Source of the DNA: Alkalihalobacillus sp. LMS39 | GTDB taxonomy: Bacteria > Bacillota > Bacilli > Bacillales > Bacillaceae_F | Direction: 5' to 3' | DNA: 64,000 nucleotides | Assembly (NCBI RefSeq): GCF_022812285.1 | Contig: NZ_CP093300.1 | Coordinates: forward strand, 1,178,001-1,242,000 | Part shown: positions 11,113-58,233 of the stretch, one piece after another | Position numbering within the stretch: position 1 is the first letter of the stretch | Layout of the letters: each line of letters opens with the position of its first letter | The notes under the pieces: generated by a model | What the model was told of the DNA's origin: nothing | Databases searched by the model: none | What the model saw: the letters and a program-made list of their open reading frames with translations, nothing else | Made by a program: the position numbers and the translations under genes

Positions 11113-11429
11113 ATGTTGGCTATTTCGGTTCAAACTGGGATGACGTTCGTCCGGCGTTCCAAGCCGACAAATAGCGATGTATTTAGGTTCGTAAGCGTGA
11201 ACAAGAGCAACGGTTGATAATGCTTCATTTGAAGTAGATCAGGATTTGTGCCATATGCGGACGAAGTAGAAAGAAATGGCGTGATTATCGGTGGTGGCTC
11301 GATTTGGATTGCAAATGGAATAGTGGCAGAAGAAACTAACTAACCGCGCGATTGAAATTGCTAACAGGACGTCTGGGCAGTAATGAGAATACAGAAAGAA
11401 TCTCTTCCTATGGGAGAGATTCTTTTCTG
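11113..11429 (+). pseudogene. Decayed duplicate of the 3' part of ugpB with its terminator
   Basis: The sequence from GGCTATTTCGGTTCAAACTG onward follows ugpB from about base 4389, with point changes, early stops and frameshifts, then jumps over an internal deletion (about 4605-4916) to the ugpB end GACGTCTGGGCAGTAATGAG. The ugp terminator hairpin is kept at 11398-11429. It begins within two bases of the melA stop. Together with the intact ugpB it forms direct repeats around the mel operon, suggesting insertion by recombination or an old tandem duplication. Confidence 0.88.
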
Positions 11430-11443
11430 TTTATGATAGTTAA

Positions 11444-11636
11444 GCGGCCATGAAAACCGATATCTGTGAACATTACTAGCGTTTGGAACGTGGGTGGACA
11501 CAGGAGCAGTTAATCATAATATTTCGCTAGGAATAGATTGGCTTTTGCGTGAATAAGCGCTCCTGTGGCCGCTAAAAAACGGAAACCCGTATCATGTTCA
11601 CAAATAACGGCTGCTCTGACCGCAAAAATGAGATAT
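11444..11636 (+). repeat. Dispersed repeat A, copy 2
   Basis: From GCGGCCATGAAAACCG to AAAAATGAGATAT. Outer inverted arms CCGATATCTGTGAAC / GTTCACAAATAACGG and inner arms ACAGGAGC / GCTCCTGT could form a long bipartite hairpin. It lies 14 bases after the duplicated ugpB terminator. Copies 2, 3 and 4 are very alike and also share a short TTTATG…TTAA-type lead-in. Confidence 0.9.
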
Positions 11637-19415: not shown

Positions 19416-19583
19416 AAAGATAAGATAAATTTGGTATAGCAGTGAAACTTTGAAAGCTTTTTCAAGAAGAGCGAAGGCTGCGCACCTGCGCGTTACACCC
19501 CAAGAAGAGCACTTGGGGTTCACTTTCAAAAGCGGGCAGGGCTCTGCACTTCGCTTTAAAGAAAAGACGCTCCGCGTTTTCTT
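19416..19583 (+). repeat. Dispersed repeat B, copy 1
   Basis: About 165 bp from AAAAGATAAG through TTTGGTATAGCAG and GCGGGCAGGGCTCTGCACTT to GACGCTCCGCGTTTTCTT. It contains small hairpins: GCGCACCTGCGC, CCCCAAG/CTTGGGG and GCTTTGAAAGC-like arms. Other copies are at 20439 and 29729. A related GACGCCCCCGCGTTTTTC piece precedes it at 19392, as if another truncated copy lies next to it. Confidence 0.85.
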
Positions 19584-19852: not shown

Positions 19853-19979
19853 AGTACAATTCGTTGCTACGCTTCATGGAATGAAATTCGTAGAGTTTTG
19901 CTAATAAAACTATATGATGTTTAGGCTTCTAATATACAGGGTCAGGAGTATGATAAATCATTTGAGAACTTAATGGAAT

Positions 19980-20386
19980 AGTGGAGATTGACGGTTATGC
20001 ACTTCGTAACGATTCAGAGATTAATGTCGGGGAGTCTACTAGTGGTGACATCGTGACGCATACTGTTCAGCAAGGTCACATCTTTTGCCGGATTGCCGAT
20101 GTGTATGATGGGTATCCGTGGCTCGCATAATGGAGCTTAATCTAGGATTGACCCATTTGTAGTAGCGCTCGGCTTTGATGTCTTCGTTGTTGAGTGCACG
20201 TTTGAATCGGAAAATGGTGAGACAAGTAATGAATATAGTTACCACACGACGATCCACCCTGGTACTACGTTTACTGCGAAAGCGAGTGTCTATGATGGTG
20301 TGAGTGTAGCCGATATTAGAGCAGTGAACCGGTCGTTAAATGAAAGAGAGCACGATTGGCGCAACTGTTTAGATAATAGTAAATGA
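19980..20386 (+). pseudogene. Remnant of a protein gene (unidentified)
   Basis: Two coding-like stretches in different frames: EIDGYALRNDSEINVGESTSGDI…VYDGYPWLA ending in TAA near 20130, and FVVALGFDVFVVECTFESEN…TAKASVYDGVSVADIRAVNRSLNE ending in TGA at 20386. There is no start codon and a frameshift or stops lie between. A terminator follows, as at a gene end. The family is not recognised; the composition suggests a surface or secreted protein. Confidence 0.5.
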
Positions 20387-20398
20387 GTAGGTTTTAAT

Positions 20399-20438
20399 AA
20401 ACACAGAGACTATTTGAGCAGTCTCTGTGTTTTTTTTT
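20399..20438 (+). terminator. Intrinsic terminator
   Basis: Stem ACACAGAGACT / AGTCTCTGTGT followed by nine T. It is 13 bases after the stop of the decayed gene and directly before repeat B copy 2. Confidence 0.85.
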
Positions 20439-20598
20439 AAAAAGATAAGTAAAAAATTTTGGTATAGCAGCGAGGCTTTGAAAGCTTATTCTAGAAGAGC
20501 GAAGGCTGCGCACCTGCGCGTCTCACCCCAAGAAGAGCACTTTGGGTTCACTGTCAAAAGCGGGCAGGGCTACGTTCTTCGCTTGAAACGAAATTTGT
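20439..20598 (+). repeat. Dispersed repeat B, copy 2
   Basis: Same unit as at 19416 and 29729: TTTTGGTATAGCAGCGAGGC … GAAGGCTGCGCACCTGCGCG … CCCCAAGAAGAGCACTTTGGG … GCGGGCAGGGC … CGCTTGAAACGAAA. It begins at the end of a terminator T tract. Confidence 0.85.
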
Positions 20599-20641
20599 AT
20601 GAATTTCAGTAAGGTTCCTGTCTCTCGACACTTTAAAGTAC

Positions 20642-20812
20642 ATGGGCTCAGTCACTTTTTCCAAATGGGTGATCAGTTTGGAAAATATCACAGAAATGCT
20701 TAAAGGGATACTTGAGGGCTGTATGCTTGAAATCATCGGCCGTGGCGAAAGAGATAAATGGCGTGACCAACTCAACAAGAACATAGCAAGAAAACTAGGA
20801 GGACTGAAATGA
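20642..20812 (+). pseudogene. Truncated PadR-family regulator remnant
   Basis: An open frame MGSVTFSKWVISLENITEML… contains ENITEMLKGILEGCMLEII, which resembles the N-terminal helix of PadR regulators, but the winged-helix core is missing and the frame jumps to a short basic tail ending GGLK. Its stop overlaps the next ATG (ATGA), as in PadR/DUF1048 operons. The likely cause is an internal deletion. Confidence 0.5.
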
Positions 20813-20952
20813 GTATCAAGAAAAATATCCAAAAAATCATCGAGGAAAAAAAGAGTGGAGAGCCCATGTTTCCCGTGTCTAAATTCTCATCAGCATACTC
20901 TATAAAAAATGTGCATCCTTTTTCTCGATTATTCGTCTTTATATATGAGTAA
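20809..20952 (+). pseudogene. Short frame resembling the N-terminus of a PadR-linked DUF1048 protein
   Basis: 47 residues (MSIKKNIQKIIEEKKSGEPM…). The first 15 residues look like DUF1048 proteins, which normally follow PadR genes; the rest does not. It overlaps the preceding frame by ATGA. Probably a truncated leftover, not a working gene. Confidence 0.35.
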
Positions 20953-20973
20953 GTTTTCAAGGAGGAAATTCAG

Positions 20974-21549
20974 ATGAAACTAGAAGAAATCTACAAGGAG
21001 TTTCATAAACCGTTAATGGTTTTTATTATTAAGCGTGTCTCTAATCCAAATATTGCAGAAGATATTGCCCAGGATGTCTTTATGAAAATTGCTGCATCCA
21101 TTACTTCATTAAAAGAAGAAGAAAAAATACGAAGTTGGATCTACAACATCACCCGTAATGCAATCATCGATTATTATCGAACAAAAAAGCCAACTACCGT
21201 GCTCCCAGGCGAACTAGTTGATGATAACCAGCTGGAGAATCACGATTTATCAAAGGAACTGTCTGCATGTATTCGTCCAATGATCAATCAACTTCCAAAT
21301 AAATACAAAGAAGCGATTGAACTTACAGAACTACAGGGTATGTCCCAAAAAGATTTAAGTCGTCATTTAGGAATGTCTTTTTCCGGTGCGAAATCGAGAG
21401 TTCAACGTGGACGGTTGAAGTTAAAGGAGTTGTTAATTGCATGCTGTCATATTGAAGCAGATTCCTATGGGAATATCATTGATTTTCATAAAGAAATTAA
21501 TGTATCCGGAGATAGCTGCAAGCAGTCCAATGACTGTGCCTGTAATTAG
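20974..21549 (+). CDS. sigZ: ECF RNA polymerase sigma factor, SigZ-like
   Basis: 191 residues. Sigma region 2 (LEEIYKEFHKPLMVFIIKRV … AEDIAQDVFMKI … IRSWIYNITRNAIIDYYR) is at about 1-75; region 4 (LPNKYKEAIELTELQGMSQKDLSRHLGMSFSGAKSRVQRGRLKLKELL) is at about 109-157. A Cys-containing tail (ACCHIEADSYGNIIDFH … CKQSNDCACN) matches the SigZ group. AAGGAGG precedes ATG 20974. No anti-sigma gene is visible; a Cys-rich small protein follows in the same direction and could be the partner or target. Confidence 0.8.
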   Translation: MKLEEIYKEFHKPLMVFIIKRVSNPNIAEDIAQDVFMKIAASITSLKEEEKIRSWIYNITRNAIIDYYRTKKPTTVLPGELVDDNQLENHDLSKELSACIRPMINQLPNKYKEAIELTELQGMSQKDLSRHLGMSFSGAKSRVQRGRLKLKELLIACCHIEADSYGNIIDFHKEINVSGDSCKQSNDCACN

Positions 21550-21612
21550 CATTTGCGTCTTTCTTAGTTAATCTTCGTCTTATAGTATGCACGTAAGAAA
21601 GGAGGAGATATT

Positions 21613-21786
21613 ATGGACGAAAGAAAGAAAGACGCAACCTACAGTGCCGGGAAAAACCAATGTGAATGCGAATGTAAATGTGATAACAATGGGGAAAACA
21701 ATTGTACTTGCGTCTGTGAATGTGATTGTAAGGATGGTTCTGCAGCAGAAAAGCCTGTGGAAACAAAAACATGTTCTTGCTGCTAA
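21613..21786 (+). CDS. Small cysteine-rich (metallothionein-like) protein
   Basis: 57 residues, MDERKKDATYSAGKNQ… with 12 Cys in CxC series: CECECKC near residues 17-23, CTCVCECDC near 33-41, and CSCC at the C-terminus. AAAGGAGGAG precedes ATG by a normal gap, and the gene starts 63 bases after the SigZ-like gene. The repeated CxC pattern points to metal or redox binding, as in metallothioneins; I cannot name a family. A longer open frame over the same bases lacks this pattern and is a shadow. Confidence 0.7.
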   Translation: MDERKKDATYSAGKNQCECECKCDNNGENNCTCVCECDCKDGSAAEKPVETKTCSCC

Positions 21787-22166
21787 AGGAGGAACAGGGG
21801 ACGGAAATTCCGTTCCCTTCCTTAAAATGAGGCTTGTCTATTCAATAGGGATAGTTTGAAGAACCTGAATCTAATAATAGAATGGTGAGGACTTTAATTA
21901 TGATCGATTTAAACTATTATTATCAAATTTAATTATTCCGTTGAGAATAAAGAAAGATAAGTTTTTGTAGGGCGATGCTATAAGCGATGGGAGAGACAGT
22001 TCTGATGCTTCTTTCGCTTAGTGAGAAGGTGGGACTGTTTTTCTTTATAATAAAAGAAGTAGGAAAATCATGATGAGCAGAAATCAATTACTTGAGAAGA
22101 TGCGAAGACGAAATGTATGGAAAAATGGGGATGTGAGTGCATCGCATTAGTCGCTACTTATTTTAT
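21787..22166. other. Intergenic region with hairpins and a small remnant
   Basis: A hairpin GGGGACGGAA / TTCCGTTCCC at about 21798-21818 follows the Cys-rich gene. A 26-codon frame (MMSRNQLLEKMRRRNVWKNG…) near 22070-22150 has a partial ribosome site and is probably a gene end left by a deletion. Nothing else is recognisable. Confidence 0.4.
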
Positions 22167-22200
22167 AAAAATGCCTTTAAAGTCAAAGGCATTTTTTTGT
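22167..22200 (+). terminator. Intrinsic terminator before repeat A copy 3
   Basis: Stem AAAATGCCTTT / AAAGGCATTTT with loop AAAGTC, then a run of T. Confidence 0.82.
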
Positions 22201-22216
22201 TGTTTATGGTAATTAA

Positions 22217-22408
22217 GCGGCCATGAAAACCGTTATTTGTGAACATTACTAGTGTTTTGAAACGTTGGCGGACACAGGAGCAGTTAATCATAATATATTG
22301 CTAGGAATAGAGTGGCTTTTGTGTGAATAAGCGCTCCTGTGGCGGCTAAAAAACAGAAACCCGTATAATGTTCACAAATAACGGCTGCTCTGACCGCAAA
22401 AATGAGAT
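22217..22408 (+). repeat. Dispersed repeat A, copy 3
   Basis: From GCGGCCATGAAAACCG to AAAAATGAGATG, with arms CCGTTATTTGTGAAC / GTTCACAAATAACGG (fully complementary here) and ACAGGAGC / GCTCCTGT. It lies 16 bases after a terminator T tract and is the left boundary of the interval that holds the HrgA-like and helicase genes. Confidence 0.9.
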
Positions 22409-22866
22409 GTGGGATGTTAAGTATAGCAATGACAACTTCGTGGCTGTTTTCTTTTCGATTCGCTCAAGAGTTTCCACGTAAATATCAAAGCGTGTATTTA
22501 CATTAGTCGAAAATCATTAAATGTGGAATCAATAGAACCTAATTGTTTATCAAATTATTTATTATCGAGTCCAAACCTTGAATTTGTTCTTTTTGTTCTT
22601 GTTAATCTTCAAATGGATAATAGGTGTATTCATTAAAAAGTTTTGGAAGCGGAAAACCTTAACGAATACAGAGAATATGGAGAAGTGGAACGAGATAAGC
22701 GGTTAACTAATTCAGAACTTACATGGTTAATAGAGCATGTGGAATGATGAGGTTTCGTCTGAAATAAGTATTAGTTTTTCTAAATACGGAAGGTTATTCT
22801 CTACGTTTTTAGTCATACTGTTTCTATGGACAAAATAAGGAAAACGATAAAAAACAACTCAGAAGA
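22409..22866. other. Intergenic region with a short gene remnant
   Basis: The frame at about 22641-22748 reads VLEAENLNEYREYGEVERDKRLTNSELTWLIEHVE and ends in tandem TGA codons. It has no start and is probably the 3' end of a lost gene. No promoter for the next gene stands out. Confidence 0.4.
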
Positions 22867-22875
22867 TTGGTGATA

Positions 22876-23946
22876 ATGATGAACAAACACTTTTTAGATA
22901 ACCTTCATGAAAGAGAATTGCACCCATTTTTAAATTATTATTTAAATCATACATTAGGCATTGCTGCGAAGACGATTTATCAGGAGAGGTCAATAAATTC
23001 AACAAAGGGAGAGAATGAGTGGATTCACCCTGATATGGTTGGATATAGTTTAACGACTTCTGATTGGAGTGAAAAAGTTGTCTCGTTAGCGGAACAATAC
23101 AATGTGCCAAAAGTCATTTTATATTCATTTGAATTAAAAAAGGAAATTACGATGTCTAATTTACGAGAAGTATTTTTCCAAGCTGTTTCAAATTCAAGTT
23201 GGGCAAATGAAGGGTATTTAGTGGCTGTGGAAATAGATACGTCAAACACAAAATTAGTACAAAAGATGAATCGACTGTCCAATTCATTTGGAATTGGAAT
23301 CATAAAGCTTAATTTGGATGACCCGACAACTTCTAAATTAGTTACTGCTGGGAAAAGAAAAGAAGAAATTGATGGAGATACAGTAAACAACCTGTTTGAA
23401 ATTAATAAGGACTTTAAAGACTTTTTAGCTGATGTAGAGCGTGCGGTAAAAATAAATCGTCCAGTTAATTATAATCTAGATGAAGTGAAAACATTAGAAG
23501 AATTAAAAGAGGTTTTGACTAGTGTGGAAGGTGTGGATGTACAAACGGTTCAACCGACCTCTAAACCTGATGCAAGAACATCACTGGGAAATGAGCAAGT
23601 GATGGATTGGAGTATAAATGTTACTGGTAAGAAACCGAAAAGAATGATTATTTACAATGAAGAATATGAAGCACAGAGTTGGAAGCAAGTCTATATTACC
23701 TTCTGTAAATACTTAGCTGAAAAAGATTTAACACAATTAAAGCAAACGAAATTAACGGGGCGAAATAGAGACTTCTTTTCAACCTCTGATAAAAATTTGC
23801 GCGTGGCTTATTTACTGGAAGAAGTTAATTTGTTCATTGAAGTAAACTTAAGTGCACAACAAATTATTAATAATGTAAAAGCTCTGATTAAGGAATTTAA
23901 TTTGGATATTACTCATATTAAAATTATCCTGGATATGAACAACTAA
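22876..23946 (+). CDS. HrgA-like protein (COG2958), possibly restriction- or defence-associated
   Basis: About 356 residues. The N-terminal half carries the blocks typical of COG2958/HrgA proteins: RELHPFLNYYL, KTIYQERS, EWIHPDMVGYS, LYSFELKKEIT, SNLREVFFQAVSNSSWANEG and FGIGIIKLNLDDP. HrgA-type genes are known next to restriction-modification genes. The C-terminal part (IIYNEEYEAQSWKQVYITFC … ADKNLRVAY-like … VEVNLSAQQII) looks like a domain often fused to such proteins. Start chosen at the ATG pair after GGTGAT; the frame begins at TTG 22867. No methylase or nuclease gene is adjacent. Confidence 0.68.
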   Translation: MMNKHFLDNLHERELHPFLNYYLNHTLGIAAKTIYQERSINSTKGENEWIHPDMVGYSLTTSDWSEKVVSLAEQYNVPKVILYSFELKKEITMSNLREVFFQAVSNSSWANEGYLVAVEIDTSNTKLVQKMNRLSNSFGIGIIKLNLDDPTTSKLVTAGKRKEEIDGDTVNNLFEINKDFKDFLADVERAVKINRPVNYNLDEVKTLEELKEVLTSVEGVDVQTVQPTSKPDARTSLGNEQVMDWSINVTGKKPKRMIIYNEEYEAQSWKQVYITFCKYLAEKDLTQLKQTKLTGRNRDFFSTSDKNLRVAYLLEEVNLFIEVNLSAQQIINNVKALIKEFNLDITHIKIILDMNN

Positions 23947-24117
23947 CAGAATGAAGGCGACTATTTCTATAAGCGTAGCATCATCAAGACGGAAACCGAG
24001 CAATCATTGCTGGTTTTCGTCTTTTCTACTAAGGACCTTAGCAGATAGGTAAGACAAAATAGAACTGGTTTAAAAAAAACTACCTTATTTTCGAACATTG
24101 GCCATTGTGCTATAAAG

Positions 24118-24471
24118 TTAGTTTCCATTCCTTATTGCATGTGTTATACCCCAAAATATAAATCGATATACAGCTGCAACAAGAAAGAAAACCCAGATAT
24201 ATTCAATAATTGTATACGACATACCACCGAGTAAAAGTGAGTTTAAGAAAACTAAGAATAAACACAAATACTCAAATAAAGAATCTTTCCATGTATATCT
24301 TTCAATAAGTTCTTTCGTATTTCTGAAATTAAAGACATCTCTTAATTCTTTAGTACGCCATCCTTTGACTAAAGCTAGACCTATTGTATAGATTCCGAGC
24401 GCAAATCCAAAGTCTATTTTCATTACGTGTGTTATTACACAATACATGATGGTGAATATGAGTAAATACAT
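24118..24471 (-). CDS. Small hypothetical membrane protein
   Basis: 117 residues with three or four hydrophobic segments: MYLLIFTIMYCVITHVMKIDF at the start, a cytoplasmic charged part (GWRTKELRDVFNFRNTKELI), then two segments at the end. AGAAGGAG precedes ATG 24471. Not recognised. It faces the HrgA-like gene tail to tail and lies downstream of the hydrolase gene on the same strand. Confidence 0.6.
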   Translation of the reverse strand: MYLLIFTIMYCVITHVMKIDFGFALGIYTIGLALVKGWRTKELRDVFNFRNTKELIERYTWKDSLFEYLCLFLVFLNSLLLGGMSYTIIEYIWVFFLVAAVYRFIFWGITHAIRNGN

Positions 24472-24604
24472 ATCACGATTCTCCTTCTTTTTATTAACCT
24501 TGGAAACAATACTTTAAAAAAATTGCAATATGGTTTGAAATTACTGATGAACAACCTTTGAAATCTATTATACAATGAAGCTACCCATTGAATTAGATTA
24601 ACAA

Positions 24605-25480
24605 TTAGTTAGATAAAAAATCATTCACTACTTGATTGATGTATTTCCGCCTTTCCGCTGATGTGAAGTATAAATGACCACAATTTTTCAGAAGGTGTCC
24701 TTCAACATTTGGAATTATATTTTTGGCTCGTTTAATCACCTTTTCACCTGGAAACAAAACATCTTTTTCTCCAGCAAATAGTAATGTAGGTGAGTTGTAT
24801 TTTTTCATTTCAGTGGCCTTTACATTTGAAGGCATATTTGGATTTACTTTGACATGATGAAAGGTGGTCCTAATCATTTCTAACGTTTCATTATCGATAG
24901 ATTCATTTAAAGAGGCCATGGGTAAAAATGCTTTTCTAAACCACTTTTCTTTTTTAGTTAATAAATACATAAGCATTGGTATACCCATACTCACGATCAG
25001 TTTATATTTTGAAGCGTTGTATATCCCTGCAGGCACAAGTAGAATTGCTTTAGATATTCTATCTGGTGAAGTACACATAAGTTTTGCTAAAATTCCCCCA
25101 CCAAAGGACTCCCCAATGCAAATGATTTCTGTATATCCTAACGAACCGATCACATCAGAAGCCCAAAATCCGTAATCAAGTGTATTTGATGATAAAACGT
25201 TTTGAACACTTTTTCCAGGGTGTCCGATTGTATCTGGAGCATAAACTAAATAGTCTTTAAATAAGTGTAAGTTTTTGCTTAATGAAAAAGCAGAAGTACT
25301 ATTTCCCCCGTGAAAAAGAATTACAGGCTTAGCATTAGGGTTTCCTATTTTTAAAACATGAGTTTCTCCATACCGTGTGTTCACATATAAATCTTCATAG
25401 TCTATCCCTAAGCCTCTAACCTGGGAGTCATATAGTTCCAACATCATCTTCTCACTATCAGTTGATTTGTATATACTCAT
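24605..25480 (-). CDS. Alpha/beta-fold hydrolase
   Basis: 291 residues. Core starts at KPVILFHGGNSTSAF (oxyanion HGG), nucleophile GESFGG with Ser125, acid Asp in AGEKDVLFP and base His in LLKNCGHLYF, all in canonical order. No signal peptide, so cytoplasmic. Start set at 25480, after GAGGGG; the frame extends 36 codons upstream with no site. The reaction cannot be specified beyond ester or peptide-like hydrolysis. Confidence 0.8.
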   Translation of the reverse strand: MSIYKSTDSEKMMLELYDSQVRGLGIDYEDLYVNTRYGETHVLKIGNPNAKPVILFHGGNSTSAFSLSKNLHLFKDYLVYAPDTIGHPGKSVQNVLSSNTLDYGFWASDVIGSLGYTEIICIGESFGGGILAKLMCTSPDRISKAILLVPAGIYNASKYKLIVSMGIPMLMYLLTKKEKWFRKAFLPMASLNESIDNETLEMIRTTFHHVKVNPNMPSNVKATEMKKYNSPTLLFAGEKDVLFPGEKVIKRAKNIIPNVEGHLLKNCGHLYFTSAERRKYINQVVNDFLSN

Positions 25481-25952
25481 ACTATTTCCCCTCGTTTCAT
25501 AATCATCGAGTTGTCTATCGTCTCCTATTATCCTGCCTCTTACTACAATAAGCGATAGCAGTTCTTCGCTACTCATCAACATTTTCATATATACAGATTA
25601 TTCCAAATTTAATTATACACATAAATAGTTGTAGACGGCTATCAAATATGAATTGCTTGTTACAAAATCATTATTTTAGTAGACAAACTGTCGTTAAGAA
25701 CTATGTTTGGCACATATCGTCATGATAACCTCAAGCATTTGCTAGATTGCTGTATAAATAATTTCAGTTAAAAAAAATGTCTGATATAATACTAATGTGG
25801 TGAAAGATGGAATAAAATAACTAATTTTACAAGCTTCTATGGTTATGGAAGTCATCTGTATAATAGATGACTTTGTTAAATAACAGGGTCATAACATCTG
25901 TAATTTCTAAGTACTCATCAGTAACGTATTAATATATGAAAGAGGTAGAAGC
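25481..25952. promoter_or_regulatory. Divergent intergenic region upstream of the helicase gene
   Basis: A -10-like TATAAT lies at 25785-25790 with only a weak -35. A perfect 9-bp hairpin AAGTCATCT / AGATGACTT (25849-25873) sits in the presumed leader, 80 bases before the helicase start, and is followed by a T-poor tail, so it could be an attenuator. No gene is visible. Confidence 0.4.
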
Positions 25953-28900
25953 ATGAAAGAACAGTTAGTACATATGAGGGATAAGCTTAACAATATAAAC
26001 AAGCGTAATCGGTCGATTCGGTTGTTAAAGCTTTATAATAAGTGGAGTTTTGACCTAACTGAGTTGGATAAGCTTGCAGAAGAAATCAATGTTTCGGAAA
26101 TTGTTGAAAAAATTGTGAAGCAAACAAAATCAAATATTACGATACTAAAGCCTTCCATTGATAATGATGACTCGCTCGCACTCGCTAAGAAACTAACGAA
26201 TCTTTCTCGGAATATAAAGAGCATTGAAGAAGAGAAAGGAATTCACGATTTTTATCTTGGCTATCCGTTCTTGTCTGGAACACTTCAAGACGGGACTTTT
26301 TTTCAAGCTCCACTTTTCTTATATCCTTTGAGACTTGAGCGGATTAAAGTGAATAGCCAAAGGTGGGTGTTGAGTTTAGATGAAGGGGAACCCCAGTTAA
26401 ATAGGACATTGTTTCTTGCGTTTAAAAAGTACAATGATTTACGGTTTACTGAAGAATTCTTTGAAAAGGGCGCGAGTTTAGCGACGTCTTTGGACTTTGA
26501 AACTTGGCTAAGCTTCTTACGTGAGTATGAAATATCAGTCCAATATAATCAAGAAGGAATGTTGAAATTAAAGCAATATACGGCAGATGACATACCCGAG
26601 AACGCGAACATAACGTTAGTAGAAAATGCAGTCATTGGGCATTTTCCTCAAGGGAATACGTCTTTAGTAAGAGATTATGAATTACTAATCGAAAAAAATG
26701 AGAATGGTGATAATCTTTCACTTGCTGGTGAGTTAATCGATTCGACTTCAACGGACGTAGACACAGAAACAGATGAGGAAGAATTACTGGAAGTAAAGGA
26801 AGAGAACATTGAGCTATTAAATTTATTACCTGCAGATGGATCTCAAGAAGAGATTTTGAAAGAAGCGTATTATAGAAAAGGACTTGTTGTGCATGGACCA
26901 CCGGGAACAGGGAAATCGCAAGTTATCGTTAATTTAATTACCGATGGGGTAAAACAAGGGAAAAAAATCTTAGTCGTTTGTGAGAAACGTGCTGCGTTAG
27001 ACGTTGTTTATCAGCGGTTAGATAGCTTAGGGTTGAGTAATCATGTTGCACTTGTTCATGATGAAAAGTTTGACCGGAAAGTACTTTATGCAAAATTAGC
27101 GTCTGTAATTGAGCAAAGTGAAATCACCCATCAAGAATCGGTAGAGATTTTAACAACGACATCGAAAAAGCTACAAAATCATGAGGAGCTCTTAAATAGT
27201 ATTGCTAAGGCTCTTTATGAAAAACAACCGTTTGGGCTCAGACTATATGATTTATATGGCTTAGCTAATTCTGTTGAAAATACGACGCAAATTATTGAGT
27301 TATCTTCTGTCTTATCCGACTTAGATAAAGATGGGTTAGATGAAATCTCTGAACGTGTTTATACATATGGCGAGTGGTTTGCTCGCTTTGGGCATGAGGA
27401 TTACCCTTTGAAAAAGCGGAAAAGCTTTTCAGATTTCGTGATGAAAGATAAATTACAAGCGATAGAATTGTTAAATGGGGTCATTGCTCGAGCGGAAAAA
27501 GCTGTCGACTATCTCGAATCATTAGACCAAGAAAAGATAACGCCCGCTTATACATGGTTGGTCGAGAATAAGTTGGATAAAGTGTATCCAGACTTAGATG
27601 ATACGAATCAACGGACACTTCAAGGATTACGGTTATGGTGGTGGACCACGTTTTCTGGGAAACCGATACTCAATGAGCTGTTGGATGGGGAGAACTTTAA
27701 AGGTGTAAATTCTACAGAGTGGTTAAAAGTGAAGCAGTCTCTGATTATCATGCACAACTTAGGGAAAGAAACGAAGGCCATGTCTGAGGAAGTGGAAAAG
27801 CTATCAAAATATTTGGCAAATGAACAAATCTCCTATTTCAAAACAAGAATATCAGAAGGGGATATTCCGGTTAAAGAATTAAATCAAATTCTTGAGTCGA
27901 TCCACAGTGATTTTGAAGAATTGCAACAGATGGATGGATATTTTTCTCGAACAACAGAGCAAGTGCGTGATGTTATCGGCAAGTTACAAGAAAAAGAAAA
28001 CAACACGGACATGTCATTGCCGGACTTTTGGGTGGATTTATTTCGAAATTCTGCTTATGTTCAGTGGATTGACGAAACCGAAAAAAAATATCCTCAAGTT
28101 CAAAAAGTATCGACAAATGAATTTCAGCGGATTCGAGCTACCTTTGCGTTATTGATTGAGGAAAAAAGAAAAGTGGCTACCCAATATATTATCCATAAGT
28201 TAACGGAAAGTGTGGAAAAAGCTCATGCTACCCATACAAAGAGAATAAGAGATTTAAAGCACCAAGTAGGAAAGAAGCGAATGATTTGGTCATTAAGAAA
28301 ACTTGTTAATGAGTTCGCTAGTTATGGTTTGGTCGATATCCTTCCTGTTTGGCTTGCTTCACCAGAAATAGTGTCAGCTATTTTTCCGCTTGAAGAAGGG
28401 TTATTTGATTTAGTCATTTTTGATGAGGCATCCCAATGTACAGTGGAGAGTGGAATTCCTTCTGTGTATCGAGCAAGACAAGTCATTGTTGCTGGTGATG
28501 AGAAACAATTGCCACCTTCTACAACATTTATGGGGAGTATTTCGAGCAATGATGATGACGACGATGAACCGGAATTTGAAACAGACGATTCAGTTAGCTT
28601 ATTAAATCTGGCGAAAAGAAGATTTCCGGAGAAAATTTTACAATGGCATTATCGCTCAAAATATGAGGAGTTAATTAACTTCTCAAATCATGCGTTTTAT
28701 AATGGACATATTCAAATTGCGCCGAACGTCAATAAATACAGAACCCCACCAGCAATACAGTGGAAGAAAGTAGACGGGTATTGGATAAATCAATCTAACG
28801 AGGTAGAAGCACTTGAAGTCGTAGGGCAACTTAAAGACATTTTAATTAATCAACCGAAAAAAACAGTCGGAATTATTACCTTTAATGCGAAACAACAAGG

Positions 28901-29687
28901 GAAGATACTCGATATGATTGAGAAAGTCACAGAGGAAGATGAAGAATTTAATGTCATCTACCAACAAGTCATGTCCCAAGATTTAGATGAGCGAGTATTT
29001 GTTAAAAACATTGAAAATGTTCAAGGGGACGAACGAGATATTATTCTCTTTTCGATCGGCTATGCGAAAAACGAAGAAGGAAAGGTGTATAATCGCTTTG
29101 GCTCTCTTAATCAAAAAGGGGGAGAAAGCAGGTTGAATGTCGCCGTCACTCGAGCAAAAGAGGGAATTGTTGTTGTATCAAGTATTGACCCAGAACAACT
29201 CAATGTGACGAACACAGCAGAAGTCGGCCCGAAAATCTTCAAGTCATACTTGAAGTATGCTAAAGCCGTAGCCCAATCAAACATCGAGGTGATTGAGTCG
29301 GTCATCCAAGAACTGAATGAAACAGTGACTACTCATGTAAAAAAACAAGAGTTGCAATTTGATTCTAATTTTGAAGAGCAAGTATACAATCAACTAAGAA
29401 ATTTAGGCTATGAAGTCACAACTCAAGTCGGAATGTCCGGATATCGAATCGATATGGCAATCGTGCACCCAGAAGATTCCTCGAGATATATTCTAGGAAT
29501 AGAATGTGATGGTGCTATGTATCATAGTTCTCAAAATGCCAAAGAAAGAGACGTCTACCGGCAAAAATTCCTTGAAAGTCGGGGCTGGACAATTGAACGG
29601 ATATGGAGCCGCAACTGGTGGCGAAACCAAAATGCAGAAATAGAAAGAATTGACCAAAGAGTGAAAGAGTTGGTGAAAAAGAAATAG
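25953..29687 (+). CDS. DUF4011 / superfamily 1 helicase with C-terminal Vsr-like nuclease domain
   Basis: 1244 residues. The N-terminal region has DUF4011-like features (SRNIKSIEEEKGIHDFYLGY, APLFLYPLRLERI). The helicase core: Walker A GPPGTGKS at about 315-322, motif II FDEASQC near 823, motif III VAGDEKQLPPS, motif V ENVQGDERDIILFS, and motif VI NVAVTRAKEG with Arg1067, as in Upf1-type SF1 helicases. The last 110 residues resemble the PD-(D/E)xK fold of Vsr/MTES_1575 proteins: Glu1141, Asp1167 in RIDMAI, Glu1184-Cys-Asp1186 in GIECDGAMYH, then WTIERIWSRNW. Helicase-Vsr proteins occur in anti-phage loci (for example hhe); defence is an inference. It stands alone with its own terminator. Confidence 0.85.
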   Translation: MKEQLVHMRDKLNNINKRNRSIRLLKLYNKWSFDLTELDKLAEEINVSEIVEKIVKQTKSNITILKPSIDNDDSLALAKKLTNLSRNIKSIEEEKGIHDFYLGYPFLSGTLQDGTFFQAPLFLYPLRLERIKVNSQRWVLSLDEGEPQLNRTLFLAFKKYNDLRFTEEFFEKGASLATSLDFETWLSFLREYEISVQYNQEGMLKLKQYTADDIPENANITLVENAVIGHFPQGNTSLVRDYELLIEKNENGDNLSLAGELIDSTSTDVDTETDEEELLEVKEENIELLNLLPADGSQEEILKEAYYRKGLVVHGPPGTGKSQVIVNLITDGVKQGKKILVVCEKRAALDVVYQRLDSLGLSNHVALVHDEKFDRKVLYAKLASVIEQSEITHQESVEILTTTSKKLQNHEELLNSIAKALYEKQPFGLRLYDLYGLANSVENTTQIIELSSVLSDLDKDGLDEISERVYTYGEWFARFGHEDYPLKKRKSFSDFVMKDKLQAIELLNGVIARAEKAVDYLESLDQEKITPAYTWLVENKLDKVYPDLDDTNQRTLQGLRLWWWTTFSGKPILNELLDGENFKGVNSTEWLKVKQSLIIMHNLGKETKAMSEEVEKLSKYLANEQISYFKTRISEGDIPVKELNQILESIHSDFEELQQMDGYFSRTTEQVRDVIGKLQEKENNTDMSLPDFWVDLFRNSAYVQWIDETEKKYPQVQKVSTNEFQRIRATFALLIEEKRKVATQYIIHKLTESVEKAHATHTKRIRDLKHQVGKKRMIWSLRKLVNEFASYGLVDILPVWLASPEIVSAIFPLEEGLFDLVIFDEASQCTVESGIPSVYRARQVIVAGDEKQLPPSTTFMGSISSNDDDDDEPEFETDDSVSLLNLAKRRFPEKILQWHYRSKYEELINFSNHAFYNGHIQIAPNVNKYRTPPAIQWKKVDGYWINQSNEVEALEVVGQLKDILINQPKKTVGIITFNAKQQGKILDMIEKVTEEDEEFNVIYQQVMSQDLDERVFVKNIENVQGDERDIILFSIGYAKNEEGKVYNRFGSLNQKGGESRLNVAVTRAKEGIVVVSSIDPEQLNVTNTAEVGPKIFKSYLKYAKAVAQSNIEVIESVIQELNETVTTHVKKQELQFDSNFEEQVYNQLRNLGYEVTTQVGMSGYRIDMAIVHPEDSSRYILGIECDGAMYHSSQNAKERDVYRQKFLESRGWTIERIWSRNWWRNQNAEIERIDQRVKELVKKK

Positions 29688-29692
29688 AAATT

Positions 29693-29722
29693 AGAGCCTT
29701 CGTTGAAAAACGAAGGTTTTTT
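29693..29722 (+). terminator. Terminator of the helicase gene
   Basis: Stem AGCCTTCGTT / AACGAAGGTT with a GAAA loop, then six T, starting five bases after the stop codon. Confidence 0.85.
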
Positions 29723-29728
29723 AAACTG

Positions 29729-29886
29729 TAAAAAGCATAAAATTTTTGGTCTAGCAGCGAAGCTTTGAAAGCTTATTCTAGAAGAGTGAAGGCTGCGCAC
29801 CTGCTTGTTTCCCCCCAAGAAGAGCACTTGGGGTTCACTGTCATAAACGGGCAGGGCTCCGCACTTCGCTTGAAACGAAAAGACGT
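29729..29886 (+). repeat. Dispersed repeat B, copy 3
   Basis: TTTTTGGTCTAGCAGCGAAG … GAAGGCTGCGCACCTGC … CCCCAAGAAGAGCACTTGGGG … CGGGCAGGGCTCCGCACTTCGCTTGAAACG. It follows a terminator and is joined to repeat A copy 4 with about 20 bases between, so the two families form a composite here. Confidence 0.85.
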
Positions 29887-29907
29887 CTTATTGTTTATGG
29901 GAAGTAA

Positions 29908-30090
29908 GCGGTCATGAAAACCGTTATCTGTGAACATTGCTAGCGATTTGGAACGTTGGAGGACACAGGAGCAGTTAATCATCATATATCGCTAGGAATA
30001 GCGTTGCTTTTGCGTGAATAAGCGCTCCTGTGGCCGCTAAAAAACGGAAACCCGTATCATGTTCACAAATAACGGCTGCTCTGACCGCAA
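29908..30090 (+). repeat. Dispersed repeat A, copy 4
   Basis: From GCGGTCATGAAAACCG to GCTCTGACCGCAA. Arms CCGTTATCTGTGAAC / GTTCACAAATAACGG and ACAGGAGC / GCTCCTGT are kept. The AAAATGAGATAT tail of the other copies is missing, so it is slightly truncated at the right. Right boundary of the HrgA/helicase interval. Confidence 0.9.
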
Positions 30091-30201
30091 AACTATACAT
30101 TTTCTTTAACTTTTTGAAAAAGGGATTGGGGTTAATAAAAGCGAATATGAACTCTATTACAAATTTTCCATGTTATTACAGTGAGTATAGGAGGAAAAGG
30201 G

Positions 30202-31314
30202 TTGAATAAAAGATTATACTATTTAGATTATTTACGTGTAGTGATCACAATACTTGTTATTGTTCATCATACCGCTATTGCTTATGGAGCGGGAGGAGAT
30301 TGGATTTATAAAGATGTTGATGAGTCTGAGCTGACAATCTCGATGATTGTATTAACGATTTTTACAGCGGTAAATCAGTCATTTTTTATGGGTTTGTTTT
30401 TCTTTCTTTCCGGTTATTTTACACCAGGGTCTTATGATCGCAAAGGGGGAAAATCTTTTTTAAAGGACCGCTTGCTTCGTTTAGGAATTCCGCTACTAGT
30501 TTACCTTTCTATTTTAGGTCCTATTATAACGTATATCGCTCATTTTAAAGAGCAAATGTCACTTGTTGAGTATTATTTACAGCATGTCATTACGTTGAAT
30601 ATTCTTCATATTGGACCAATGTGGTTTGTAGAGACATTGATTTATTTTTCTCTCCTATATGCTGTTTATAGAGTACTGAATAAACGTTCCATGTCAAAAA
30701 ACATAGCGTTACCGACTTCGAAACAGTTAGTTATAATCGCCTTGGCATTGGGACTAGTTGCTTTTCTAGTAAGACTAGTAATTCCTGTTGGTTATAGTTG
30801 GTTAGGATTACAATTCGGCTATTTTCCGGCTTATATTCTATTATTCATTAGCGGGATTATCGCTTATCGACAAAAGTGGTTAGAACAAATTAGTCGACCA
30901 CTCGTGAAGACGTGGGTGAGAATATCGGTATTGTCGATACCGCTCCTTCCATTGGCATTCCTTGCTGGTGGGGCATTAGAAGGAAACATGGAATATGAAG
31001 GTGGAGTGAATCTTCAAGCGTTTGTTTATGCCATGTGGGAACCCTTTGTCGCCTTTGGCATAATATTATGGTTACTAAAAACCTTCGAACAAAAAATGAA
31101 CACACCAAGTAATAGGAAGACAATACTGGCAAATGCAGCATATACCGTTTATATAATTCACCCGGTTGTTATTGTCGGGCTTAGTATTTTGCTGACTGGT
31201 AGTGCCCTCTTTCCAATCGTTAAATTTGTAATCGTCAGTCTCCTTGGTACGATTGTTTGTTTTGTTGTTAGTTCATTTATTATTAAAATTCCGTATGCGA
31301 GACGGATATTATAA
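30202..31314 (+). CDS. Membrane acyltransferase (acyltransferase 3 family)
   Basis: 370 residues with about ten membrane segments. The N-terminal KRLYYLDYLRVVITILVIVHH contains the conserved Arg and His-His of acyltransferase 3 proteins, and FFFLSGYFTP is the second family motif. These enzymes move acyl groups onto cell-surface sugars or lipids. TTG 30202 follows AGGAGGAAAAGG; the frame extends 7 codons back to GTG 30181, which overlaps the ribosome site. The acceptor is not predictable. Confidence 0.8.
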   Translation: MNKRLYYLDYLRVVITILVIVHHTAIAYGAGGDWIYKDVDESELTISMIVLTIFTAVNQSFFMGLFFFLSGYFTPGSYDRKGGKSFLKDRLLRLGIPLLVYLSILGPIITYIAHFKEQMSLVEYYLQHVITLNILHIGPMWFVETLIYFSLLYAVYRVLNKRSMSKNIALPTSKQLVIIALALGLVAFLVRLVIPVGYSWLGLQFGYFPAYILLFISGIIAYRQKWLEQISRPLVKTWVRISVLSIPLLPLAFLAGGALEGNMEYEGGVNLQAFVYAMWEPFVAFGIILWLLKTFEQKMNTPSNRKTILANAAYTVYIIHPVVIVGLSILLTGSALFPIVKFVIVSLLGTIVCFVVSSFIIKIPYARRIL

Positions 31315-31367
31315 TTTGGTATTATGTGAGTTTACAGGTAAACGCGTAGAATGAAAGGATGATGACG

Positions 31368-31898
31368 TTGGAAATATGGGATATCTATGATAAAAACAGA
31401 AACCTCACAGGGAAAACAATGAAAAGAGGAGAACCTTTTGAAAAAGACGAGTACCATCTAGTGATCCATGTTTGTCTTTTTAATGAAAAGGGAGAAATGC
31501 TCATACAGCACCGTCAACCTTTCAAAAGTGGTTGGTCAAATATGTGGGATATTACAGTAGGAGGCAGTGCCCTTTCTGGAGAGACAAGTCAACAAGCCGC
31601 AGAGCGGGAAGTACTGGAGGAAATTGGGTATGCCATTGACTTACATGGAGTGAGACCTTCGTTAACAGCAAACTTCGAAGTCGGGTTTGATGACTATTAT
31701 CTTGTTGAAGTTGATCTTGATTTTGATTTAAATCAATTGAAGCTTCAACGAGAAGAAGTACAGAACGTAAAGTGGGCGAATAGGGGAGAGATATTGAGGA
31801 TGATTGGAGAAGAAACATTCATTCCCTATCATACTAGCTTGATTGAGCTGTTGTTTGATATGAGAAAACAAATGGGGGCACATAACATGAAAGTGTGA
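31368..31898 (+). CDS. Nudix hydrolase (isopentenyl-diphosphate isomerase-like fold)
   Basis: 176 residues. The Nudix box is complete: G-x5-E-x7-REVLEEIGY, spanning GSALSGETSQQAAEREVLEE, with the metal-binding Glu residues present. The order WDIYDKNRNLTGK … HLVIHVCLFNEKGEMLIQHR fits the YfcD/Idi-like Nudix subgroup. It should hydrolyse a nucleoside-diphosphate derivative. TTG 31368 is eight bases after AAAGGA; two ATGs at 31359 and 31362 overlap the ribosome site and are less likely. Confidence 0.82.
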   Translation: MEIWDIYDKNRNLTGKTMKRGEPFEKDEYHLVIHVCLFNEKGEMLIQHRQPFKSGWSNMWDITVGGSALSGETSQQAAEREVLEEIGYAIDLHGVRPSLTANFEVGFDDYYLVEVDLDFDLNQLKLQREEVQNVKWANRGEILRMIGEETFIPYHTSLIELLFDMRKQMGAHNMKV

Positions 31899-31916
31899 GG
31901 AAGTGTACCGAGAATT

Positions 31917-32105
31917 CTAACGGACATCCATTCCGCTATTACACAAAAAAATGACGTTTTCGCAAAGCTATCGGACATCTGTTCCGTTAAACTAGCAAAA
32001 TGCGGGGGCTCGGTGCCATTTACGGGCTAATAACGGAACAGATGTCCGATAAGAATTGAAAAAGGCGTATTTTTGATGAAATAGCGGAATGTATGTCCGA
32101 TACGG
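31917..32105 (+). repeat. Dispersed repeat C, single copy
   Basis: A 189-bp unit with four related motifs: AACGGACATCCATTCCGCTA, ATCGGACATCTGTTCCGTTA, AACGGAACAGATGTCCGATA and AGCGGAATGTATGTCCGATA. The first two and last two are inverted relative to each other, so the unit can fold into nested stems. Other copies are at 51355, 51569, 51783 and 58045. It begins 19 bases after the Nudix stop. Confidence 0.9.
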
Positions 32106-32137
32106 TTGGGCGTCCCCCGTCATCGCACCAAACTCAC

Positions 32138-32187
32138 CAATCCCGCATGATTCCTTCCCGATAAGGAGTCATGCGGGATTCTTTTTA
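32138..32187 (+). terminator. Intrinsic terminator after Nudix gene and repeat C
   Basis: Stem AATCCCGCATGA / TCATGCGGGATT with an 18-base loop, followed by CTTTTT. Confidence 0.8.
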
Positions 32188-51278: not shown

Positions 51279-51354
51279 GTTAGTGGAACTCTTGTGGTGT
51301 GGTGGGGAGAGGGTTAGGGATGGGGTTGTATAGCTGGAATTGTATGAGGTGTTG

Positions 51355-51971
51355 TAACGGACAGAGGATCCGCTATTTTGAGAAAAAGTAATGTTTTTTG
51401 AAAGCTATCGGACATGTGTTCCGCTAAATCAGCTAAATGAGTGGTGGGAGGTGCGGTTACAGGTCCAATAGCGGAACAGGTGTCCGATAAAAACTGAAAA
51501 AGGCTAGTTTTCTATGAGATAGCGGAACGTATGTCCGATAGGGGGAAGTAAGCCCAGGGTTCCCTGTGCTAGCGGACAGAGGATCCGCTATTTTGAGAAA
51601 AAGGGGTGTTTTTTGAAAGCTATCGGACATGTGTTCCGCTAAATCAGCTAAATGAGTGGTGGGCGGTACCATTTCAGGTGCAATAACGGAACAGATGACC
51701 GATAAGAATTGAAAAAGGCTAGTTTTCTATGAGATAGCGGAACGTATGTCCGATAGGGGAAGGTATATGAGAGTTCCCTGTGCTAGCGGACAGAGGATCC
51801 GCTATTTTGAGAAAAAGTAACGTTTTTTGAAAGCTATCGGACATGTGTTCCGCTATGTTAGCAAAACGAGGGGTGGGCGGTGCCATTTTAGGTGCAATAA
51901 CGGAACAGATGTCCGATAAGAATTGAAAAGGCTATTTTTCAATAAAGTAGCGGAACGTATGTCCGATACGG
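51355..51971 (+). repeat. Three tandem copies of repeat C
   Basis: Units begin at 51355, 51569 and 51783, an exact 214-bp period: about 189 bp of repeat plus a 25-base linker ending TTCCCTGTGCT. Each carries two CGGACA…CCGCTA motifs and two inverted GCGGAAC…GTCCGATA motifs. The copies differ at scattered positions (for example 51700 GATGACCGAT instead of GATGTCCGAT). Open frames across them are not genes. Confidence 0.92.
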
Positions 51972-57923: not shown

Positions 57924-58044
57924 ATTAACGTTCCTTTCTTTTTTTTCTATGAATCTGTTTATATTTTACAATAAAAAGGGATGTTTTGGTAAAATGATTT
58001 TGTTAAATGTTAAGTAGAGGAAATGGCGAGTGGTTTCCCTCAGT

Positions 58045-58233
58045 TCTAACGGACATCTGTTCCGCAATTCACATAAAAACGTAGGTTTCCTTAATGCTAT
58101 CGGACATCTGTTCCGTTAAATCATCAAAATGAGGAGTTCTCGGTGCTGTTTATGGGGGTATAGCGGAACAGATGTCCGAAAAGAAATCAAAGTGGCTTGT
58201 TTTTAGTGAAATAGCGGAATAAATGTCCGAACG
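58045..58233 (+). repeat. Dispersed repeat C, fifth copy
   Basis: Motifs AACGGACATCTGTTCCGC, ATCGGACATCTGTTCCGTTA, AGCGGAACAGATGTCCGAAA and AGCGGAATAAATGTCCGAAC in the same order and spacing as at 31917. It fills most of the gap between two genes read in opposite directions. Confidence 0.9.

Follow-up and report, generated by a model that had tools for sequence, protein, structure and literature searches.

A compact DUF4011-SF1B helicase-Vsr nuclease of Alkalihalobacillus sp. LMS39, a probable stand-alone defence protein

The gene at 25953-29687 on the forward strand of the window (the whole 64,000-nucleotide stretch analyzed here, part of the genome of Alkalihalobacillus sp. LMS39, a single contig of 4.85 Mb) joins a helicase and a Vsr-like nuclease in one protein of 1244 residues. 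We consider it, with a probability of roughly 70%, to be a stand-alone, single-protein anti-phage nuclease, in which an SF1B motor would track phage nucleic acid and a Vsr domain would cut it, with no partner involved. Defence is the most likely role and is well supported, albeit indirectly, by patchy presence, a gene tree in conflict with taxonomy, broken copies, no fixed partner, and neighbourhoods that hold defence genes.

Reading of the open reading frames across the window gave an uninterrupted frame from ATG to TAG, opposite a stop-rich reverse strand. The N-terminus of the protein lies within the DUF4011 region and 8 residues follow the nuclease, and its four Pfam domains (DUF4011, AAA_11, AAA_12 and the MTES_1575 REase) all exceed their gathering scores (Table 1). 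DUF4011 (PF13195) was matched by 27 of 27 homologues at E up to 1. In an alignment of 27 homologues, Walker A, DEASQ, GDxxQ, VQGDERD, R1067, E1141, D1167, E1184 and D1186 were invariant or nearly so, and the nuclease signature E1184-C-D1186 is intact in the focal protein. Pfam domains, motifs and the nuclease model thus agree with the original prediction of a helicase-nuclease fusion with intact Walker A, DEAS, motif VI arginine and D…ECD signature. Motifs I, II, III, V and VI, together with a UPF1-like fold in the model, place the motor with the SF1B helicases of the UPF1/IGHMBP2 type, while score, catalytic residues and a predicted Vsr fold (Z 11.2) place the nuclease in PF18741. The nearest named relative found, Alkalihalobacillus bogoriensis ATCC BAA-922, carries a 98% identical ortholog, and the dN/dS of 0.068 between the two (23 nonsynonymous and 83 synonymous changes) indicates that the protein is maintained under purifying selection.

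Table 1. Features of the focal gene (window positions) and defence genes near its homologues (homologous loci by handle).
Feature	Position	Strand	Evidence
Divergent intergenic region; must contain the promoter; no site above chance	25589..25952 (364 bp)		sequence
Shine-Dalgarno AAGAGGT, 6 nt upstream of ATG	25940..25946	+	sequence
Focal gene: compact DUF4011-SF1B helicase-Vsr nuclease, 1244 aa	25953..29687	+	ORF, Pfam, motif alignment
DUF4011 match, residues 74-153	26172..26411	+	Pfam 47.7 bits vs cut-off 22.2; place of the UPF1-like 1B barrel in the model
Helicase 1A, N-terminal half (AAA_11), residues 295-420	26835..27212	+	Pfam, above gathering score
Walker A GPPGTGKS, residues 315-322	26895-26918	+	motif, inside AAA_11
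All-helical insert separating motifs Ia and II, residues ~430-760	27240..28232	+	low-confidence model; no Pfam match or HEPN motif
Helicase motif II DEASQ, residues 824-828	28422..28436	+	alignment
Helicase 2A (AAA_12), residues 891-1077, with motif V VQGDERD and motif VI VAVTRAK (R1067)	28623..29183	+	Pfam, alignment
Vsr-fold nuclease (MTES_1575 REase), residues 1140-1236: E1141, D1167, E1184, D1186	29370..29660	+	Pfam 124.7 vs 38.2 bits; model
Intrinsic terminator: CCTTCGTTGAAAAACGAAGG then TTTTTT	29697..29722	+	sequence
L102: type II R-M	within 4 kb		PADLOC
L105: OLD-like	within 4 kb		PADLOC
L106: DndB	within 4 kb		PADLOC
L109: Ppl-like	within 4 kb		PADLOC
L113: Mrr-type PDC-S02	within 4 kb		PADLOC
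L114, L121: type I R-M	within 4 kb		PADLOC
L116: GmrSD	within 4 kb		PADLOC
L119: CBASS cyclase with S-4TM effector	within 4 kb		PADLOC
L120: type IV enzyme	within 4 kb		PADLOC

In the AlphaFold2 model of residues 1100-1244 (20 sequences, mean pLDDT 82), the nuclease is predicted as alpha-beta3-alpha-beta, and its best matches among known folds by VIA-align were the I-Bth0305I domain (Z 12.7), NGO0050 (12.2) and Vsr (11.2 and 10.1). Modelling of residues 45-1244 (mean pLDDT 72) gave best matches to IGHMBP2, Dna2 and UPF1, with Z of about 20-22 over 410-470 residues. As many of these helicase alignments start near model residues 36-54 (protein residues 80-98), within DUF4011 and at the place of the 1B barrel in UPF1-like helicases, the model suggests that DUF4011 is part of the helicase core and not a separate module. 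The insert of ~330 residues (430-760) is all-helical in a model of low confidence (pLDDT about 45-60), the weak part being its first half. As had been stated beforehand, the protein has no evident HEPN: Pfam returned no HEPN match, and beyond the nuclease no R-x4-6-H pair is conserved among the 27 homologues, on which grounds a HEPN hidden in the insert was rejected. One position in the family resembles RNxxxxH, but its H is Q in the focal protein and its R varies; at most, the insert could hold a very divergent HEPN fold.

The helicase matches also bear on the nature of the substrate. UPF1-like helicases often act on RNA, so that DNA is no more than the presumed target here. An RNA- or R-loop-directed defence is conceivable, in which a UPF1-like RNA helicase would find phage transcripts and a Vsr/RAP-like domain would cut RNA or hybrids, given that the closest helicases (UPF1, IGHMBP2 and senataxin) act on RNA, that the nuclease domains of relatives weakly match the RAP domain, and that mitoribosomal proteins are found among the fold matches of the nuclease. 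The compact clade described below would then represent a minimal one-protein immunity against phage RNA or RNA:DNA hybrids, consisting of a prokaryotic UPF1/senataxin-like motor fused to a Vsr/RAP-type nuclease, and dispensing with HEPN, wHTH, methylase and partner. We hold both the mechanism and this wider proposal to be improbable, since the top nuclease matches, I-Bth0305I and Vsr, are DNA enzymes, and Anantharaman et al. (2013, PMC3710099) assign MTES_1575 to the DNases of the Vsr family.

With respect to its surroundings, the focal gene stands alone, as first proposed: its upstream neighbour is divergent and 365 bp off, and a terminator hairpin (CCTTCGTT-GAAA-AACGAAGG, with TTTTTT directly after) precedes the nearest downstream gene on the same strand, which starts ~490 bp on. 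The proposed promoter region of its own holds as far as the divergent intergenic region is concerned, but not as a recognizable site, since Sigma-70-like matches in 24500-30500 were at chance level (19 found versus 18.6 expected). The Rfam search of the window gave no RNA family, and none of the scanned neighbours of the focal gene in the window was a PADLOC-recognised defence gene.

A 7.4-kb block containing the focal gene (22702-30092) is 97% identical in A. bogoriensis, while its flanks differ. The block could be a multi-gene defence system in which the gene at 22867-23943 acts as partner, as its product has the HPD...ELK motif typical of PD-(D/E)XK nucleases. We judge such a system to be highly improbable, because the 22867 gene is a neighbour at 0 of 30 other helicase loci, its family is present in a genome without the compact helicase (G047), and 2 kb with two divergent genes separate it from the helicase gene. 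The 22867 gene itself (+ strand, G+C 32.6%) encodes 359 residues with no match in Pfam or PADLOC, and strong matches to its family occur in just four of 61 genomes, namely its own, A. bogoriensis (94%), G047 (68%) and G034 (45%, partial). Between conserved anchors of the two congeners, the variable region extends over 19855-32184 in the window and over 634-20549 in L031; in A. bogoriensis the two differing flanks of the block measure 6.1 kb, including an Mrr-like gene, and 3.9 kb.

Two families of repeats were also observed in the window. The first is intergenic, about 170-230 bp long, and begins at the terminator of the focal gene (29717-29885), with further copies at 20433-20593 and 19430-19569 and partial ones at 22197-22259, 11428-11484 and 245-287. 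Of 298 first-look candidates in the genome, 40-odd were scored, which gave at least 41 good copies; the strand of the repeat flips near 2.4 Mb (22 plus and 1 minus below, 1 plus and 17 minus above), as if it were oriented with replication. As RNA it folds to about -66 kcal/mol and has no Rfam match. The second family, of about 190 bp, is found at 31899-32113, 51352-51971 and 58044-58229; near 51.4-52.0 kb, three copies follow one another.

We then compared the protein with known systems. Among PADLOC profiles, the best was PDC-S37 (706 bits, E 3e-212, in two stretches), followed by Hhe (380 bits). PDC-S37 is a single-gene candidate in PADLOC-DB and in this resembles the focal gene, although its profile has 1550 positions against 1244 residues, its status is that of a candidate only, and the profile library searched lists no curated cut-offs. 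In NCBIfam, the protein scored 716.3 bits with ProA (NF058533) and 511 bits with Hhe (NF042953), missing both equivalog cut-offs (1500 and 2000 bits, respectively). ProA contains DUF4011, SF1 helicase and MTES_1575 nuclease in the order seen here. However, in L144, a plasmid-borne ProA member from Klebsiella with 1963 aa and 2225 bits, DUF4011 (375-545) follows an N-terminal extension of ~370 residues, and DUF3320 (1820-1868) lies at the C-terminus; the focal protein lacks both, with no Pfam match to DUF3320. Hhe, the helicase-HEPN-Vsr system, has DUF4011 (in NCBI naming), helicase and Vsr-like nuclease in common with the focal protein, which supports the suspected relation; the focal protein, in contrast, lacks HEPN and DUF3320, is ~550 residues shorter, and does not belong to the clade formed by the long proteins that score best with Hhe. 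The MTES_1575 giant proteins likewise combine an SF-I helicase with a Vsr-type REase, have no methylase gene, and were proposed to act in modification-independent defence; in addition, they bear HEPN and transglutaminase domains and a pair of wHTH domains put forward as DNA-recognizing (PMC3710099), and of all these the compact form has no trace.

A tree of the helicase 2A-nuclease region separated a long ProA/Hhe-type clade (22 rows, SH-aLRT 96) from a compact clade (40 rows, SH-aLRT 99, mostly 1245-1425 aa) that contains the focal protein. The two kinds coexist, since two genomes (G704 and G1069) have both compact and long copies, and G595 has a compact copy with a ProA fragment. Given scores far under the cut-offs, missing HEPN and DUF3320/wHTH parts, and the separate clade, the focal protein is neither Hhe nor ProA. 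Whether it is a distinct type, as had been suggested, depends on the features considered: its compactness, its separate clade and the lack of HEPN and DUF3320/wHTH do set it apart, whereas the DUF4011 N-terminus, offered as the reason, does not, as ProA and Hhe carry it as well and the region models as helicase core. Moreover, PADLOC already lists PDC-S37, so that the kind itself was known and the protein is one variant of it. We found no paper on PDC-S37, on ProA as an anti-phage protein or on the compact clade, and no experiment on the latter.

Some compact relatives are divergent. L126 and L128 (G1116 and G1069) have altered helicase motifs and C-terminal extensions; L128 reads DEANQ and lacks LPP in motif III, in a genome that also has long forms. 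A further homologue, on an 81-kb IMG/VR contig (L175, 526-4209), adjoins DNA-methyltransferase-like genes and has GIDFCLN in its nuclease, without the ECD motif; judged by this sequence, it may be a nuclease-dead relative.

Sampling of the host's order and class revealed compact copies, full-length or broken, in 24 of 397 and in 20 of 398 genomes, respectively (41 different genomes in all), so that carriers make up ~5-6% of the sampled species, spread over many families. A single-sequence protein query of the genome contigs, a narrow type of pattern, matched the A. bogoriensis ortholog alone. A third genome of the genus has only a remnant (L120), and in the tree this remnant sits with a copy of a different family; monophyly of the same-genus copies was rejected (AU p 1.25e-16), and compact copies of other orders nest in the tree among those of the host's order. 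Five of the 41 copies are broken, by frameshift (L118 and L129), stop (L130), internal deletion (L120) or truncation with replacement (L119). Patchy presence, broken copies and a gene tree at odds with taxonomy form the pattern of a transferable and dispensable gene. Two homologues stop near residue 838, but a programmed frameshift was rejected: the first carries a frameshift, unrelated sequence takes over in the second, and both look like decay. That the gene is phage-borne was also rejected, as relatives occur in just 2 of 50,697 phage records and those on viral contigs are nearly all long forms; a nuclease-only query against viral contigs gave no match.

The neighbourhoods of the homologues point to defence, and not to a conserved partner. 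In an all-against-all comparison of the neighbours at 32 loci, no conserved partner gene was found; no neighbour was common to more than four loci, and none had a fixed position. Genes within 4 kb at 20 loci were then compared with arbitrary 8-kb control stretches of the same contigs. At E 1e-20, PADLOC matched 209 families near the gene versus 22 in the controls, a contrast overstated by many redundant type I specificity models; inspected by eye, the control matches were housekeeping ATPases, a SNF2 helicase and a cysteine desulfurase. A defence gene was present at 10 of 20 loci versus 0 of 20 controls (Fisher p 4e-4, an approximate value, as these genes were chosen by eye ahead of the profile check). 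In A. bogoriensis, an Mrr-like nuclease gene lies about 3.5 kb upstream of the focal-gene copy.

These results bear on whether the gene could serve the host itself, as a DNA-repair or recombination helicase-nuclease of Dna2- or RecBCD-like housekeeping type whose loss is tolerated in many species. Dna2, one of the best helicase matches (Z 21.5), likewise joins helicase and nuclease, the Vsr fold is a repair-enzyme fold, and purifying selection is strong. Nevertheless, we find such a role unlikely in view of the few carriers, the conflict between gene tree and taxonomy, the broken copies and the defence-rich neighbourhoods. Dna2, UPF1 and IGHMBP2 have eukaryotic housekeeping roles, while the focal protein has a long helical insert; moreover, the nuclease of Dna2 is N-terminal. 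Altogether, patchy, transferred, decaying and enriched near defence genes, the gene does not behave as a core gene with fixed neighbours, which agrees with the defence role foreseen for it. Not all DUF4011 proteins are necessarily defensive, given that a DUF4011 gene of P. aeruginosa is a core gene merely flanking a defence hotspot (PMC10250203).

Under the preferred reading, a single-protein anti-phage nuclease, an SF1B motor resembling UPF1, IGHMBP2 and Dna2, in which DUF4011 would form the 1B-like barrel, would use ATP to load and track on invading phage nucleic acid, the likeliest substrate being ssDNA-containing ends or replication intermediates. The C-terminal domain of Vsr/I-Bth0305I fold would nick or cut the tracked phage DNA and thereby presumably protect the cell, unaided by a methylase, an HEPN RNase or any partner. 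This raises the question of how a nuclease with neither a methylase nor an evident recognition domain would discriminate phage from self. With 1244 residues, the protein should be easier to purify and to solve structurally than members of 1650-2000 residues, and its clade offers about 40 homologues. If it is protective, the HEPN, transglutaminase and wHTH domains of the giant Hhe, ProA and MTES_1575 proteins would be dispensable, and a UPF1-like motor with a Vsr nuclease would be the working core.
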